From: Lachnospiraceae bacterium
GTDB lineage: Bacteria > Bacillota > Clostridia > Lachnospirales > Lachnospiraceae
Direction of reading: 5' to 3'
Assembly: GCA_023664345.1 (NCBI GenBank)
Contig: JAMPFQ010000014.1
Span: 48,758 to 112,757, forward strand
Length of the DNA stretch: 64,000 nucleotides
Part shown: positions 2,558 through 59,211 of the stretch, piece after piece
Layout of the letters: the number at the start of each line of letters is the position of its first letter
How positions within the stretch are numbered: the stretch's first letter is position 1
Made by a program: the position numbers and the translations under genes
Notes under the pieces: model-generated
Databases searched by the model: none
What the model was told of the DNA's origin: nothing
The model's input: the letters and a program-made list of their open reading frames with translations, nothing else

Positions 2558-4201
2558 ATGTTACGGATCAATCAGGTAAAGATAAGAATGGATCACACAG
2601 AACAGGACTTACGAAAGAAAGTGGCGGACATGCTCCGCATCCCTGTGGGAGAGATACGGACACTCACCATTGTGCGCCAGTCCATTGACGCTAGGAAAAA
2701 GCCGGAGATCTCTTACAGCTATACGGTGGATGTGGAAACGGCGGGCGAAGAAAGACTCTTACGGAAAATGAAAGGCAGGCTGCAGATCTCCAGGGCGGAG
2801 GATGTGAAGTATCGTTTCCCCGAATCGGGGACGAAAGAATCAAAATATCCGCCTGTAATCGTGGGAATGGGGCCGGCGGGATTGTTCTGCGGGTATTATC
2901 TGGCTTTGCACGGTTATCGTCCGATTCTGTTAGAGAGAGGGAAGTGCGTGGAGGAAAGGCAGAAAGACGTGGAGGCATTCTGGCGGACGGGGATGCTGGA
3001 CCCTGCTTCCAACGTGCAGTTTGGGGAGGGCGGTGCGGGCGCTTTTTCCGATGGCAAGCTGAACACGCTGGTAAAGGATAAGGATGGCCGGAACAGGGAG
3101 GTGCTGGAGACATTTGTGAAGTATGGGGCGAAAGAGAGTATCCGATATGAGGCAAAGCCCCATGTCGGCACGGATGTGCTCTGCCATGTGGTCAGGAACA
3201 TGAGGCAGGAGATCCTTGCGCTGGGCGGTCAGGTCAGGTTCGGGAGCCAGGTGACAAAGATACAGATCCGGAACGGACGGATCACAGGCGTGGAGATAAA
3301 CAGGAAAGAGACTCTGCCCTGCGAACAGCTGGTACTGGCCATCGGGCACAGCGCCAGGGATACGTTTCAGATGCTGTATGAAAAACAGATTCCCATGGAA
3401 GCAAAATCGTTTGCGGTGGGGCTTCGGGTGGAGCATCCCCAGTCCATGATCGATGAGAGCCAGTATGGCAGGATGGGGGCGGAAGTGGATCGTCTGGGTG
3501 CGGCGCCCTATAAGGTGGCAGCAAAGGCTTCCAACGGCAGAGGTGTTTATTCTTTCTGCATGTGCCCCGGCGGGTATGTGGTAAACGCATCTTCGGAGCC
3601 GGGCAGGACGGCGGTCAACGGTATGAGCTACAGCGGGCGTGACGGCAGTAATGCCAACAGTGCGATCATTGTGTCCGTGACCCCGGAGGATTTTGGCAGC
3701 GATCATCCCCTTGCAGGGGTGGAATTCCAGAGGCTTCTGGAAAAGCGGGCGTATGACCTGGGCGGAGGGAAAATCCCGGTGCAGCGATACGGGGCTTTTA
3801 GAAAGGAAGTTGTATCCGGCGGAAAAAGCCACACGGCATCAGCGCCCAAAGAAGCAGATTCCATGCCGGACAGTTCCCTGCAGCCTCAGTGCAGGGGTGC
3901 GTTCTGCTGGGCGGATGTGAGCAGGATCCTTCCTGTGGAATGTAATGAAGCATTTGTGGAGGGCATGGAGATCTTCGGCAGGCAGATCAGGGGCTTTGAC
4001 AGGGAGGACGCCATCCTGTCGGGAGTGGAGAGCCGGACTTCCTCCCCGGTGCGGATCTGCAGGGATGAGACATTGCAGTCAAAGGTCAGGGGACTTTATC
4101 CCTGCGGCGAGGGAGCGGGGTACGCGGGAGGCATCACATCCGCCGCCATGGATGGTCTGAGGGTGGCGGAGGCGATCGCGGCGGAATATCATATGGGATG
4201 A
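2558..4201 (+). CDS. FAD-dependent dehydrogenase, COG2509 type
   Basis: A 547-residue protein. The N-terminal domain (INQVKIRMDHTEQDLRKKV, then IVRQSIDARKKPEISYSYTVDV) is the small alpha/beta domain that precedes the FAD fold in this family. The FAD motif is IVGMGPAGLFCGYYLA near residue 106, followed by ERGKCVEERQKDVEAFW and GEGGAGAFSDGKLNT. The end (PCGEGAGYAGGITSAAMDGL) closes the FAD site. The ATG at 2558 has GGAG six bases upstream and matches the usual family start; the open frame begins earlier at a GTG. A Ser/Pro-rich insert near residues 445-475 is not typical. Substrate unknown. It lies about 200 bases after the previous flavoprotein gene. Confidence 0.85.
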   Translation: MLRINQVKIRMDHTEQDLRKKVADMLRIPVGEIRTLTIVRQSIDARKKPEISYSYTVDVETAGEERLLRKMKGRLQISRAEDVKYRFPESGTKESKYPPVIVGMGPAGLFCGYYLALHGYRPILLERGKCVEERQKDVEAFWRTGMLDPASNVQFGEGGAGAFSDGKLNTLVKDKDGRNREVLETFVKYGAKESIRYEAKPHVGTDVLCHVVRNMRQEILALGGQVRFGSQVTKIQIRNGRITGVEINRKETLPCEQLVLAIGHSARDTFQMLYEKQIPMEAKSFAVGLRVEHPQSMIDESQYGRMGAEVDRLGAAPYKVAAKASNGRGVYSFCMCPGGYVVNASSEPGRTAVNGMSYSGRDGSNANSAIIVSVTPEDFGSDHPLAGVEFQRLLEKRAYDLGGGKIPVQRYGAFRKEVVSGGKSHTASAPKEADSMPDSSLQPQCRGAFCWADVSRILPVECNEAFVEGMEIFGRQIRGFDREDAILSGVESRTSSPVRICRDETLQSKVRGLYPCGEGAGYAGGITSAAMDGLRVAEAIAAEYHMG

Positions 4202-9393: not shown

Positions 9394-9410
9394 TGTATGG
9401 TGCTGGAGAG

Positions 9411-9460
9411 AAGAGACCGGAACAAATTGCCGCATGCGGCAATTGAATAGGAATAGGAGG
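9411..9460 (+). repeat. Hairpin-ribosome-site repeat, family C, copy A
   Basis: GAGACCGGAACA, then the perfect palindrome AATTGCCGCATGCGGCAATT (9425-9444), then GAATAGGAATAGGAGG. The last part serves as the ribosome site of the gene at 9467. The same order occurs before ilvD (43101-43172) and before the ABC ATPase gene (58044-58327). Confidence 0.75.
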
Positions 9461-41779: not shown

Positions 41780-42865
41780 ATGGAACTGCATATTACATGT
41801 ATCCCCGGCGACGGGATCGGGCCGGAAATCGTGAGAGAGGCCAAAAAGGTACTGGAAAAGGTAGCGGAACTCTACGGGCATAAGATGATATTTGAGGACA
41901 TCCTCATGGGCGGCGCGTCCATCGACGTGCACGGAGTCCCCCTGACGGAGGAGGCTGTGGCAAAGGCGAAAGCGGCGGACGCCGTGCTGATGGGATCCAT
42001 CGGCGGCAATACTACCACTTCCCCCTGGTATAAGCTGCCCCCCAACTTAAGACCCGAGGCGGGACTGCTGGGCATCAGGAAAGCGCTGAACCTTTTTGCA
42101 AACCTGCGTCCTGCAATCTTATATGACGAACTGGCAGGGGCCTGTCCTTTAAAAGAGGAGATCAGCAAGGCCGGATTTGACATGCTGATCATGCGGGAAC
42201 TGACCGGCGGACTCTATTTTGGCGAGCGTAAGACGATAGAGGAGAACGGCGTGCGGAAAGCCATCGATACCCTGACGTATGATGAAAATGAGATCAGGCG
42301 CATTGCCATCAAGGGCTTTGACATCGCCATGAAGCGCCGTAAGAAAGTGACCAGCGTGGACAAGGCGAATGTGCTGGATTCCTCCCGCCTCTGGAGGAAA
42401 GTGGTGGAGGAAGTGGCAAAGGATTACCCGGAAGTGACGCTGGAGCATATGTTGGTGGACAACTGTGCCATGCAGCTGGTGAAAGATCCGGCGCAGTTCG
42501 ATGTGATCCTCACGGAAAATATGTTCGGAGATATCCTGTCGGACGAGGCCAGCATGGTCACCGGTTCCATCGGTATGCTGGCAAGCGCAAGCTTAAACGA
42601 CAGCAAATTCGGCCTCTATGAGCCCAGCCACGGCTCCGCGCCGGATATCGCGGGACAGGACGTCGCCAATCCCATCGCCACCGTTTTGAGCGCCGCCATG
42701 ATGCTGCGTTACAGTTTTGACCTGGATAAGGAGGCGGACGCTATCGAGAAAGCGGTAAAGCAGGCGCTTGCGGACGGCTTCCGTACTGTGGACATTATGT
42801 CCGAGGGCTGCACGAAAGTAGGCTGCAGCCGGATGGGCGACCTGTTGGCTGAGAGGATAGATTGA
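41780..42865 (+). CDS. leuB: 3-isopropylmalate dehydrogenase
   Basis: A 361-residue NAD-dependent decarboxylating dehydrogenase of leucine synthesis. Seen are [22 protein letters not shown], GPrefix-like [115 protein letters not shown] and [32 protein letters not shown]. Tyr in GGLYFG and the three substrate arginines are present. ATGs at 41771 and 41780 are in frame; the latter has GGAG in a workable position. The stop codon lies within the first unit of a tandem repeat. leuA, leuC and leuD are not in the window. Confidence 0.95.
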
Positions 42866-43093
42866 AAAATCAAAGATTTTTCAATCAGAAATTTGTGCTT
42901 ACGCCCAAATTTCCGGGTTGCGGCAAGAATGGGAATTGGATTGAAAAATCAAAGATTTTCAATCAGAAATTTGTGCTTGCGCCCAAATTTCCGGGTTGCG
43001 GCAAGAATGGGGATTGGATTGAAAAATCAAAGATTTTTCAATCGCGAATTTGTGCCTGCGGTTCAAATCCGCAGGTTGCGGAAAGGCATGGAG
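42860..43093 (+). repeat. Three tandem 78-79-bp hairpin units after leuB
   Basis: Units start at 42860, 42939 and 43017. Each opens with the perfect stem GATTGAAAAATC/GATTTTTCAATC around AAA (the second lacks one T), then AAATTTG and CAAATTT arms and GGTTGCGG. The third has diverged in its second half, where CCTGCGG/CCGCAGG forms a new hairpin. A frame across the units (42862-43098) is a repeat artefact. Confidence 0.85.
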
Positions 43094-43100
43094 GATAAAA

Positions 43101-43172
43101 TTTCTTCCCCGCCAAGGGCATTGAAGTGAAGAGACCGGAACAAATTGCCATAAATGGCAATTGAATAGGAGG
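43101..43172 (+). repeat. Hairpin-ribosome-site repeat, family C, copy B
   Basis: TTTCTTCCCCGCCAAGGGCA, TTGAAGTGAAGAGACCGGAA, then the hairpin AATTGCCATAAATGGCAATT (43143-43162) and GAATAGGAGG. The AGGAGG is the ribosome site of ilvD. Together with 42860-43093 it fills the gap between leuB and ilvD. Confidence 0.75.
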
Positions 43173-56747: not shown

Positions 56748-57293
56748 ATGGAGGCTCAAGTGCAGGAAACTGAATGGGTGAAAAGCGCACAGCGGGGAGA
56801 TGAAAATGCGCTGAACAACTTAATAAGCAGCTATTATCAGCCTGTTTTCGCGTATTTTTATAAGAACACGGGCAGCTATCATCAGTCGAAAGACCTGACC
56901 CAGGAGGTCTTTATCAGGATGGCGGCGGGCATCTCACGGTATAAGCCCAGGGCGGCTTTTAAAAGCTGGCTGTTTACGATTGCTTCCAATCATTTGAAAA
57001 ATTATTACCGTACCCTTTCCCGGCATCCTGAGTGCATGGAACTTTCGGAGGAAATGGAGGCGGGCGGTGCGGAGACTTATAAAGCGGATTTGAAAAACGA
57101 TGTGGAGGCCGCCCTGGCGCATCTGCCGCCGGAGCAGAAAGAGGCCGTTATCCTGCGTTTTTACAGCGGTTTCACAATAAAGGAGATCTCCGGGATCACG
57201 GGAGCCCTGGAAACCACTGTGAAAGCAAGGATACGGTATGCGCTGGACAAGTTAAGGAAAGAATTGGAGGAATATGATGAGAGAGGCAGATAA
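56748..57293 (+). CDS. ECF-type RNA polymerase sigma factor
   Basis: A 181-residue sigma-70-family factor with only regions 2 and 4. Region 2: NNLISSYYQPVFAYFYKNTGSYHQSKDLTQEVFIRMAAGISRYKPRAAFKSWLFTIASNHLKNYYR. Region 4: ALAHLPPEQKEAVILRFYSGFTIKEISGITGALETTVKARIRYALDKLRKELEEY. The ATG at 56748 is preceded by GGGGCGG; earlier in-frame starts (56688, 56706) lack a ribosome site. The following membrane-protein gene overlaps its end by 20 bases, the usual arrangement of an ECF factor with its regulator. The target promoters are unknown; the ABC genes downstream are candidates. Confidence 0.9.
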   Translation: MEAQVQETEWVKSAQRGDENALNNLISSYYQPVFAYFYKNTGSYHQSKDLTQEVFIRMAAGISRYKPRAAFKSWLFTIASNHLKNYYRTLSRHPECMELSEEMEAGGAETYKADLKNDVEAALAHLPPEQKEAVILRFYSGFTIKEISGITGALETTVKARIRYALDKLRKELEEYDERGR

Positions 57294-58050
57294 GTATTCT
57301 GAAGAGTTATCCGAACGGGAAAGGCAGATCGTTATGAGCATCAGGAACGCGCCCGTTCCTGATGTACCCCGGGAAGAAGTGGAAGCGGTCTGTAAAAGGG
57401 CTGTTTCCTATTACGCGGAAAGTCAGGGCATTCGGGATGCGGGATTCTGGAAAGCGGCTTTTTCCTGTTCCACAACGGGAGCGGCGTTTTTCTGGCTTCT
57501 GGCGGCGTTCCTGCTGGGAAGTTTTGCGGTCGTCTCGCTGCTGGGGGCGGGGGATGAGGCTATGACATTTTCGTTTATGACAGCTGTGTCACCTGCGCCG
57601 ATACTGGCCTATGTGATCCGTGAACTGCAATACCGTGACGAGAATCTGGTTCTGCTGGAGAAAACCTGCAAATATGCCCCCGCCAGAATCTATTTTGTCC
57701 GTCTGTGGGCAGGCATGTTTGTGAACGCGTTATTCGTACTGCTGGCGGGTCTGGCCGCGTTCCCGCATTATGGGAAACTGCTGGAACTCTATTTCTGCGC
57801 TTTTACCGCCATGTTTTTCCTTGGAGCGGCGGCATTGTTCTGCATGGCGTTCTCGGACAATGCGCTGCCCCTGTCCCTGATGATGGCGGCGTGGATCCTG
57901 GGAGCGTCTTACCTGCTGCGCCAGGAGGAGGTACTTGAATTCATCCTGAACGCGGGCACGGGAGCGCTGGCCGCCGGGGCGCTTCTCGGTTTCGCCCTGT
58001 TCACAGCCGCCGCCACAGGCTCCACGGTGCGGATGTATGCGGAGTGTTGA
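57274..58050 (+). CDS. Membrane protein, probable anti-sigma partner
   Basis: A 258-residue protein with a 60-residue cytoplasmic N-terminus (EELSERERQIVMSIRNAPVPDVPREEVEAVCKRAVSYYAESQG) and about six membrane helices. It overlaps the sigma gene by 20 bases and has GGAGG ahead of the ATG. The layout fits a membrane-bound anti-sigma factor or a sensor, but no zinc-binding HxxxCxxC motif is visible. The C-terminal part contains two long hydrophobic pairs with few polar residues. Function is inferred from the gene order only. Confidence 0.6.
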   Translation: MMREADKYSEELSERERQIVMSIRNAPVPDVPREEVEAVCKRAVSYYAESQGIRDAGFWKAAFSCSTTGAAFFWLLAAFLLGSFAVVSLLGAGDEAMTFSFMTAVSPAPILAYVIRELQYRDENLVLLEKTCKYAPARIYFVRLWAGMFVNALFVLLAGLAAFPHYGKLLELYFCAFTAMFFLGAAALFCMAFSDNALPLSLMMAAWILGASYLLRQEEVLEFILNAGTGALAAGALLGFALFTAAATGSTVRMYAEC

Positions 58051-58327
58051 AGTGAAGAGACCGGAATAAGTTCCCACAAGTGGGAACTGGAAAAACAGTC
58101 TCGGAACGGAAACGCCCGGAAAGAAAATCCAGCTGCGTTTTTTGCAGATGGATTTTCTTTCCCCGCCACGGGTGTTGAAGTGGAGAGACGGAACTGGCAT
58201 GAAGGGAACTGGAAAAACAGTCTCGGAACGGAAACACCCGGAAGGAAATTTCAGCTGCGTTTTTTGCAGATGAAATTTCCTTCCCCGCCCTGGGTGTTGA
58301 AGTGGAGAGACGGGACTGGAATAGGAG
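58044..58327 (+). repeat. Hairpin-ribosome-site repeat, family C, tandem copies
   Basis: Two full units (from 58044 and 58172) and a partial third (from 58294), each opening GTGTTGAAGTGRAGAGAC. Unit 1 has hairpin AGTTCCCACAAGTGGGAACT (58069-58088). Both units carry a 13-bp stem around AGCTGCGTTTTTTGCAGAT: GGAAAGAAAATCC/GGATTTTCTTTCC and GGAAGGAAATTTC/GAAATTTCCTTCC. The third ends GGAATAGGAGG, the ribosome site of the ABC ATPase gene. Confidence 0.82.
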
Positions 58328-58332
58328 GCTTT

Positions 58333-59211
58333 ATGGAATTATCAGTTTGTGACCTGACAAAAGATTTTGGAACAAAGCGTGCGGTGGATCATGCGTCCTT
58401 CACCCTGACCGGCGGCGTTTACGGGCTTCTGGGACCTAACGGTGCGGGGAAGACCACCCTGATGAAAATGATGGTGGACATCCTGACGCCCTCGGAGGGA
58501 GAAGTCACCCTGGACGGCGTGAACATCCACGAACTGGGCGCGGGCTACCGGGATAAGCTGGGATATATGCCCCAGGAGATCGGCGTCTACAAAAATTTCT
58601 CCGCCGGAAAATTCCTGCGGTATATCGCGGCTTTAAAGGGGATGACCGGAAAGGCCGCTGACAGAAAGATTGCGGAACTGCTGGAACTTGTGGGACTGCA
58701 GGATGCGGGACGAAAAAAGCTGGGAGGATTTTCCGGCGGTATGCTGCGCCGCGTGGGCATTGCCCAGACGCTGTTAAATGACCCGCGGATACTGATTCTG
58801 GACGAGCCTACGGCGGGACTCGATCCCCAGGAGCGGATCCGTTTCCGGAATATCATCTCCGAACTGTCGGAGAACAGGATCGTACTCCTGTCCACGCACA
58901 TCATTTCCGATATGGAATTTATTGCCGGAGAGGTCATCATCATGCGAAACGGCGGCGTCCTCACCATTGACACCACGGACCGCCTGTTGCGGGAGATGGA
59001 GGGAAAGGTCTGGATTGCCATGGTTTCCCATGGTTCCCATGATATGCTCCGGGAATTGAAAGGACGGTATACCATCGGAAATCTGACCCGGAAAGGCGAC
59101 GGCGTGGAGGTTCGTATTGTGGGGGATGACAGGCCGGATTTTCCCGGCGAACCGGCAAAGCCCATCCTGGAAGACGTGTTCGGCTATTATTTTCGGGAGG
59201 GAGGGTCATGA
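58333..59211 (+). CDS. ABC transporter ATP-binding protein
   Basis: A 292-residue ABC-2-type ATPase. Walker A is GLLGPNGAGKTTLMKMMVDILTP, the signature is GGFSGGMLRRVGIAQTLL, Walker B is ILILDEPTAGLDP, and the H-loop is LLSTHIISDMEFIA. The start is the ATG at 58333 after AGGAGG from the repeat; an upstream open frame (from 58180) consists of repeat sequence. The gene overlaps the next one by four bases (ATGA). It powers the two membrane proteins that follow; the substrate is not known. Confidence 0.9.
   Translation: MELSVCDLTKDFGTKRAVDHASFTLTGGVYGLLGPNGAGKTTLMKMMVDILTPSEGEVTLDGVNIHELGAGYRDKLGYMPQEIGVYKNFSAGKFLRYIAALKGMTGKAADRKIAELLELVGLQDAGRKKLGGFSGGMLRRVGIAQTLLNDPRILILDEPTAGLDPQERIRFRNIISELSENRIVLLSTHIISDMEFIAGEVIIMRNGGVLTIDTTDRLLREMEGKVWIAMVSHGSHDMLRELKGRYTIGNLTRKGDGVEVRIVGDDRPDFPGEPAKPILEDVFGYYFREGGS

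Follow-up and report, generated by a model that had tools for sequence, protein, structure and literature searches.

An apparently mobile family of putative RNA-hairpin leader elements lodged 5′ of Shine–Dalgarno sequences in some Lachnospiraceae

INTRODUCTION

In Streptococcus pneumoniae, 125 BOX, 110 RUP, and 30 SPRITE repeats with predicted RNA folds (the BOX repeats being modular and of variable size) are judged by the authors, in the available text, to be parasitic and nearly confined to related species; they are expected where they do least harm, for example between convergent genes (PMC3049150). The ERIC and YPAL elements of enterobacteria and the Correia elements of Neisseria are presented, in the accessible parts of the sources, as mobile palindromic sequences that are co-transcribed and may alter mRNA stability or undergo RNase cleavage (PMC2229807, PMC3049150). 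In Beggiatoaceae, TAACTGA direct repeats form 169 sets, most of them within several nucleotides (nt) of start codons; as far as the available text goes, the genes are unrelated and partly essential, the distribution is patchy, and a post-transcriptional role is proposed (PMC4679880). Here, we describe a family of ~105-nt hairpin units placed immediately 5′ of the Shine–Dalgarno (SD) sequence in a Lachnospiraceae bacterium (GCA_023664345.1). The window analyzed is a stretch of 64,000 nt of this genome (contig JAMPFQ010000014.1, positions 48,758–112,757, forward strand), and coordinates below refer to it unless a contig or locus of the genome is named.

We read these units as a dispersed family of RNA-hairpin leader elements that behave as mobile and would lodge 5′ of an SD left open, a reading of the sequences in which we place about even confidence. 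The family is undescribed in the literature searched, in which subscription journals are thinly covered: nothing recognizable as this element is present among the matches listed.

RESULTS

Anatomy and number of the units

In front of an ABC-transporter ATPase gene of the window, the units stand in tandem, as follows.

58044–58094, + strand: remnant of an older unit, made of the 3′ part of the long hairpin (GTGTTGAAGTGAAGAGACCGGAA) and a small perfect hairpin at 58069–58088
58095–58199, + strand: full hairpin unit 1 (match of model R1 at G000:C5:106852-106956, 114 bits)
58217–58321, + strand: full hairpin unit 2, proximal to the SD (match of model R1 at G000:C5:106974-107078, 121.7 bits)
58323–58328, + strand: SD sequence AGGAGG, immediately 3′ of the array
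58333–59211, + strand: ABC-transporter ATPase gene (PF00005)

A unit is an imperfect hairpin of ~105 nt that terminates in the tail GGAACUGGAAU and contains a basal GUCUC/GAGAC stem, a conserved purine-rich internal loop, a GC-rich stem, and a long apical stem. On the 5′ side, the order is ACAGUCUC, GGAACGGA, a stem strand (AAUGCCC, AACGCCC, AGCGCCC, and others), and the long stem, with CAGCUGCG/UGCAGAUG near the tip; on the 3′ side, it is a bulge (CCGCCAA or AGAGCAA), GGGCAUU or its variants, GAAGUGNA, GAGAC, and GGAACUGGAAU. Between GAGAC and the terminal GGAAU, an optional small perfect hairpin can be present (42 in the loci of this genome, usually with the loops CAAG, 24, or UAAA, 9). Tandem repetition of the units is frequent.

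The motif GAAGTGRAGAGACSGRA, which is the 3′ arm of the long hairpin, occurs exactly in the window at 43123–43139, 58049–58065, 58177–58193, and 58299–58315, and with two mismatches at 9405–9421, before a DUF1961 gene. With up to three mismatches, seven matches are found versus 0.92 expected; those at 4022 and 10122 (three mismatches each) are at chance level. In the whole genome (3.88 Mb), the motif occurs 84 times at one mismatch or fewer (36 forward, 48 reverse) and the reversed pattern 0 times, so that a chance origin is ruled out.

A covariance model, R1, was built from an alignment, A1, of 46 of the 48 distinct units from 57 regions (four odd-shaped units being excluded), with the structure given by RNAalifold. 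At E ≤ 0.01, R1 yields 132 matches in the genome, of which eight are antisense shadows; the remaining 124 fall in 86 arrays, and full-length units without N make up 99 of these, spread over 72 arrays. Many short, structured, noncoding, and intergenic copies with variable modules are thus present, as in small interspersed repeats. Runs of N lie inside the tandem arrays at L079 and L196, and some array lengths are therefore uncertain.

Placement at start codons

The position of the arrays was scored with a strict rule (start codon at most 45 nt from the last hairpin, a frame no shorter than 80 codons, and GGAG, GAGG, or AGGA before the start). On the sense side, 77 of the 86 arrays comply; on the antisense side, one does, and so do 363 of 4000 random positions of the window. 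A looser start rule is satisfied by 83 of the 86 arrays, but also by 1432 of the 4000 random positions, which makes the strict rule the more appropriate measure. Unlike what is expected of BOX- or MITE-type repeats (MITE: miniature inverted-repeat transposable element), the copies have both a fixed orientation and a link to start codons. The other outcome, in which most copies of the motif would lie away from starts or behind genes and which would have spoken against the proposal of a leader, is not what the genome search returned.

Among the nine arrays missed by the strict rule, C9:76 is at a contig end, C42:90232 precedes an N gap after which the next unit does meet a start, and C3:59901 is followed by decayed units and then a start; in the remaining six, a start is seen by eye with a weak SD or a short frame, one of the genes being read as prfB. 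In relatives, 42 of the 47 arrays picked by the hairpin alone meet a start, and four of the five misses run into a contig end after 23–44 nt, the fifth having a weak SD. The count of 82 of 88 obtained when loci with the tail-plus-SD pattern are included is biased for position, the pattern itself containing the SD.

Ten carrier genes assigned with Pfam encode an ABC ATPase, IlvD, a DUF1961 protein, ATP synthase subunit c, an EngA-type GTPase, SHMT, IGPD, Hsp20, a nucleotidyl transferase, and a UvrD helicase. At L200, the gene immediately 3′ of an array looks, by eye, like prfB (release factor 2). Since an upstream stop codon on the same strand lies no more than 120 nt before the start of 71 of the 86 arrays (under a mechanical rule for open reading frames, ORFs), many may be inside operons. 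At the hsp20 locus, the region upstream is, instead of a same-strand ORF stop, what we take to be a CIRCE-like promoter region. Array starts that overlap the TGA stop of the upstream frame are seen in the window (58044–58094, with the TGA at 58048–58050 of ORF 57274–58050) and at L031, L057, and L066.

The predicted accessibility of the SD in 77 leaders is 0.60 with the element versus 0.51 with the element shuffled (higher in 56 of 77; p 5e-6). At 33 starts of the window, taken by a mechanical rule, unscreened and possibly including internal ATGs, the mean is 0.39. The higher value with the intact element suggests to us a self-contained hairpin which, in the model, does not capture the SD.

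Covariation of the stems

In A1, 98.1% of the cells pair, and 13 of the 22 pairs show changes on both sides. The covariation score is 0.266 versus 0.145 for shuffled alignments (0 of 500 as high) and 0.05–0.07 for slid structures; for further pair types, 35 of 500 shuffles reach as high. In 98 units of relatives (94 distinct), 21 of the 22 pairs covary, with a score of 0.544 versus 0.208 shuffled, in an alignment that was fitted to R1 and hence leans towards its structure.

Of the non-Watson–Crick cells in A1, G·U accounts for 26, A·C for 3, and other combinations for 16; in relatives, the corresponding figures are 67, 15, and 60. Equal tolerance of G·U and A·C would be expected if either DNA strand could serve. 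Because the stems covary and G·U outnumbers A·C, selection appears to act on the sense strand, most naturally in the form of RNA; sense-strand DNA is formally possible.

Other small structures touch the units. A further palindrome (AATGTGCC...GGCACAT or similar) looks as if nested in the 5′ arms of the long hairpin at L206, L201, L210, L219, L217, L208, L084, L047, and L053. At L102 (genome G019), the main type is succeeded by what looks, by eye, like a second type of hairpin, which has other arms but the same tail GCGGAACUGGAAUAGGAGG and a tip resembling that of the first.

Origin of the Shine–Dalgarno sequence

G360, a relative with identities of 87% at atpB and 86% at atpE (values for these two genes only, among the matches listed), has a single weak match of R1 among those listed (E 5e-5). 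At atpE, an SD is seen by eye in all 18 loci compared with the present genome; just 5′ of the SD, an array is present in the genome itself and a single unit in G001, and the 17 other loci have no element. At 11 more loci, the G360 orthologue is preceded by native sequence, with an SD-like run seen by eye in 10. Together with atpE, an SD-like run (GGAG, GAGG, AGGA, or AAGG, some of them weak) is present in 11 of the 12 element-free G360 sites, locus 81 being the exception. An earlier note on the window had suggested a mobile leader that supplies the SD: a shared, structured, and apparently mobile 5′ leader joined to the SD is indeed what is found, but the idea that the repeat brings the SD is rejected. 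As judged from these orthologous sites, the SD is native. The intergenic sequences of the two genomes differ, so that at most of the 11 loci insertion and replacement are indistinguishable.

Distribution and turnover

In the genus, 8 of 37 genomes (this one included) have matches and, in other families of the order, 0 of 24, in both cases among the matches listed; in a family-wide sample, it is 6 of 299, again with this genome included. Some of the compared genomes are incomplete, and zero counts there are not proof of absence. At E ≤ 1e-4, in 17 chosen genomes, the matches number at least 112 in G325, 77 in G071, 45 in G365, 39 in G014, 38 in G020, 35 in G316, 31 in G019, 31 in G363, 26 in G233, 21 in G021, 12 in G026, and 12 in G362; the fewest, among the matches listed, are in G001 (4), G223 (3), G025 (2), G360 (1), and G364 (0). 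The exact tail-plus-SD pattern (21 fixed bases) gives 42 stretches in 84,980 species, one genome each, in records titled Lachnospiraceae, Acetatifactor, Blautia, Bacterium D16-50, or uncultured bacterium.

The 94 carrier genes of the genome were compared with those of relatives, whose sets are small and in part chosen by the tail pattern. The sister metagenome-assembled genome JAMPAC has 10 of 12 carrier genes in common with it (most at 95%–99% protein identity), JAAWCE 1 of 9 (85%), CAOKQK 1 of 3 (75%), G001 1 of 4 (98%), and G025 1 of 2 (44%–45%, perhaps no orthologue); in 13 other record sets, 0 of 51 are in common. The single CATJBQ carrier gene has its best match here at 34%. A laxer comparison leaves every count of common genes at 44% identity or more as it is and brings in pairs at 31%–34% (L148, L147), which, like the one at 35% (L157), look like ABC paralogues. 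Three carrier genes, including a copA-like pair, are common to G014 and G020/CANOFQ (G020 and the record CANOFQ, having the same coordinates, are apparently one genome). By these protein comparisons, the sets of carrier genes turn over between species.

Growth and polarity of the arrays

At hsp20, JAMPAC has one unit more than the present genome, exactly between GGAA and TAGGAGG. The JAMPAC array at L146 contains two unit types (basal GUUCC and GUCUC), and the ABC array of the window differs between the two genomes both in how many units it has and in their type. When the end units of 32 arrays with several hits are compared by score, the weaker one is the 5′-most in 16 and the SD-proximal in 4, and in 12 the two are equal; this comparison of scores indicates that intact units tend to adjoin the SD and decayed ones to lie upstream. 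Remnants occur within 90 nt upstream of 45 of the 86 arrays and within 44 nt downstream of 15 of 86 (chance is 13% per random 90-mer), counts that are only supportive of polarity.

The identity of units averages 92% within arrays (30 pairs) and 71% between arrays, and 6 of the 51 units in multi-unit arrays have their best match in another array. Tandem duplication is therefore frequent, and the insertion of foreign units is suggested by the other observations. By eye, the left flanks are mostly A-rich (AAAA|ACAG) and the right ones mostly GGAACTGGAAT followed by the SD. The unit ends ACAGTCTC and GAGACGGAACTG can pair in part.

The other sites of the window

Two further genes of the window, ilvD and the DUF1961 (yesU-like) gene, carry leaders in which the long hairpin is reduced to a 3′ remnant, accompanied by the small hairpin.

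43097–43142, + strand: remnant of the 3′ arm of the long hairpin before ilvD (exact motif at 43123–43139)
43143–43162, + strand: small perfect hairpin AATTGCCATAAATGGCAATT before ilvD
43167–43172, + strand: SD sequence AGGAGG of ilvD (start codon 43182)
9405–9424, + strand: motif remnant (two mismatches) before the DUF1961/yesU-like gene
9425–9444, + strand: small perfect hairpin AATTGCCGCATGCGGCAATT before the DUF1961 gene
9455–9460, + strand: SD sequence AGGAGG of the DUF1961 gene (start codon 9467)

The order of motif, hairpin, SD, and start codon that the earlier note had pointed out at DUF1961, ilvD, and the ABC ATPase gene is as it described, at positions confirmed in the sequence, and the palindromes at 9425–9444, 43143–43162, and 58069–58088 are perfect small hairpins. 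The second stem it noticed in the ABC copies is real, with 19-nt arms that are 95% complementary and differ between copies. The small hairpin adjacent to the motif is, however, optional, and the main unit is the ~105-nt hairpin with the motif as 3′ arm.

A separate tandem repeat (units of ~78 base pairs, palindrome GATTGAAAAATCAAAGATTTTTCAATC) is found just 5′ of the ilvD leader (42860–43043). Across 295 loci, its core pattern matches nowhere but in the ilvD region, to which both L002 and L038 correspond.

DISCUSSION

The identity and placement of the leader family are well shown. Its mobility is strongly indicated by sequence comparison, because G360 is nearly free of the element, sites are empty, the distribution is patchy, and the carrier genes differ between species. 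Its function and mechanism are put forward as a proposal. New units would be added 5′ of the SD, directly after the tail of the last unit, and older ones would thereby be displaced upstream and erode there. A compact hairpin with a purine tail would be tolerated, or useful, in an mRNA leader and hence persist; the hairpin would fold on itself, with the SD staying open. The 5′ end of the message that follows may also be protected or set by the leader. From what is known of RNase III and RNase J, protection from 5′ decay or processing within operons is plausible. Regulation of the carrier genes by a general factor may occur as well.

Several points weigh against such a mobile leader that spares the SD. 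Selection alone could yield the strict placement, and the gain in accessibility is modest and model-based. RNAalifold counts G·U as a pair, which somewhat favors the contrast with A·C. A small hairpin in place of the tail lowers the R1 score of the 5′-most unit and adds a little to the polarity, and at hsp20 the gain of a unit is indistinguishable from a loss. In multi-unit arrays, 45 of the 51 units have their best match inside their own array, so that plain tandem duplication accounts for much of the array growth. No clear target-site duplication is seen by eye in the flanks, and no mobilizing enzyme was found with PF01797 and PF00078 (other transposase families were not searched).

A more specific form, which we advance tentatively, is a mobile element that targets the SD region itself, with units added stepwise between the last unit and the SD, polar arrays, and about a hundred mRNA leaders reached, those of housekeeping genes included. 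Rather doubtful, in our view, is a selfish MITE-like repeat whose mobilizing enzyme recognizes the SD region or the tail of the element, the fold serving only to spare the host gene. The patchy and changing distribution, the different unit types at one spot in JAMPAC, and the mixed, often housekeeping, carrier genes agree with it; the covariation, which indicates selection on the fold, does not, and neither does the lack of a linked enzyme within the families searched. The reverse transcriptase PF00078 has one match in the genome and is not found in the carriers G001, G020, G021, and G025 (drafts 63%–97% complete); as it does not track the element, spread by reverse transcriptase is rejected. 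Nor was a copy found in phages or plasmids: two exact patterns give 0 matches in viral_contigs, and blastn with 58090–58330 of the window gives none in phages or plasmids, so that carriage by either is rejected as far as searched.

That a trans-acting regulator, a CsrA-like RNA-binding protein or a small RNA, binds the GGA-rich loops and the tail and co-regulates the carrier genes seems improbable to us. The conserved unpaired segments GGAACGG, GAAGUG, and GGAACUGGAA would suit such a regulator, and this genome leads the 46 congeners searched in CsrA-family matches, with five (G000:C4:41591, C17:45605, C14:52022, C33:169191, and C11:263083), four of which score far below the first. But CsrA, found in 40 of the 46, occurs both in congeners that have the element and in congeners that lack it, it was not found in the carrier G020 (80% complete, at least 38 matches of R1), and the gene sets differ between species. 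With carrier genes that are mixed and turn over, the fixed regulon implied by the trans-regulated control element of the earlier note is rejected.

A classical cis-regulatory RNA, riboswitch or attenuator, that responds to a ligand is very improbable, although a conserved structured leader does precede the genes: these genes are unrelated, the tandem copies are near-identical, and turnover is seen. An Rfam family is rejected, since in the window only a tRNA elsewhere scores above threshold and the lowest E value in the array region is that of sraL (E 0.052, 18.7 bits versus a cut-off of 39); an intrinsic terminator is rejected as well, the scan of the array region giving one site versus 0.9 expected. 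An element acting at the DNA level (REP/RAYT palindrome, attC-like single-stranded DNA hairpin of integrons, or cruciform) would fit palindromic, repetitive, and intergenic copies but is already disfavored and hardly credible, as G·U exceeds A·C on the sense strand, the placement is tied to start codons, the GTTRRRY core, which we take to be that of attC sites, is not seen by eye, and the Y1 (TnpA-REP) transposase PF01797 has 0 matches in the genome, for which RAYT/REP is rejected (PF01797 occurs in 13 of the 46 congeners, three of them, G014, G020, and G026, being carriers).

If the targeting of the SD region is true, ribosome-binding sites would be the target of a mobile element, something without precedent known to us, and a selfish repeat would have become part of around a hundred mRNA leaders. 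Alternatively, a generic 5′ hairpin leader would be spreading through the genome and tuning or insulating the translation of unrelated genes.

As with REP and BIME sequences, more than 100 palindromic copies per genome and composite arrays are present here; in the available text, REP and BIME go with REP-associated tyrosine transposases (PMC2817692), whereas no Y1 transposase match exists in this genome. The described effects of ERIC, YPAL, and Correia elements bear mainly on upstream transcripts and RNase sites, and an obligatory sense placement at the SD is not mentioned in the accessible parts of those sources (PMC2229807, PMC3049150). With the TAACTGA repeats, the family has in common the proximity to start codons, the unrelated genes, and the patchy distribution; however, those are heptamers over the expected SD position, next to which, according to the available text, SDs are rare (PMC4679880), whereas here ~105-nt covarying hairpins are 5′ of SDs that are intact, and no TAACTGA heptamer is present in the unit consensus. 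The BOX, RUP, and SPRITE repeats are likewise small, interspersed, and predicted to fold as RNA but, as far as the available text describes them, differ from the present arrays, which are sense-oriented and flush with the SD (PMC3049150). The expectation of least harm is turned into its opposite: the hairpin of certain Lachnospiraceae, missing from a close relative, is found in sense orientation at a very sensitive spot of the mRNA.
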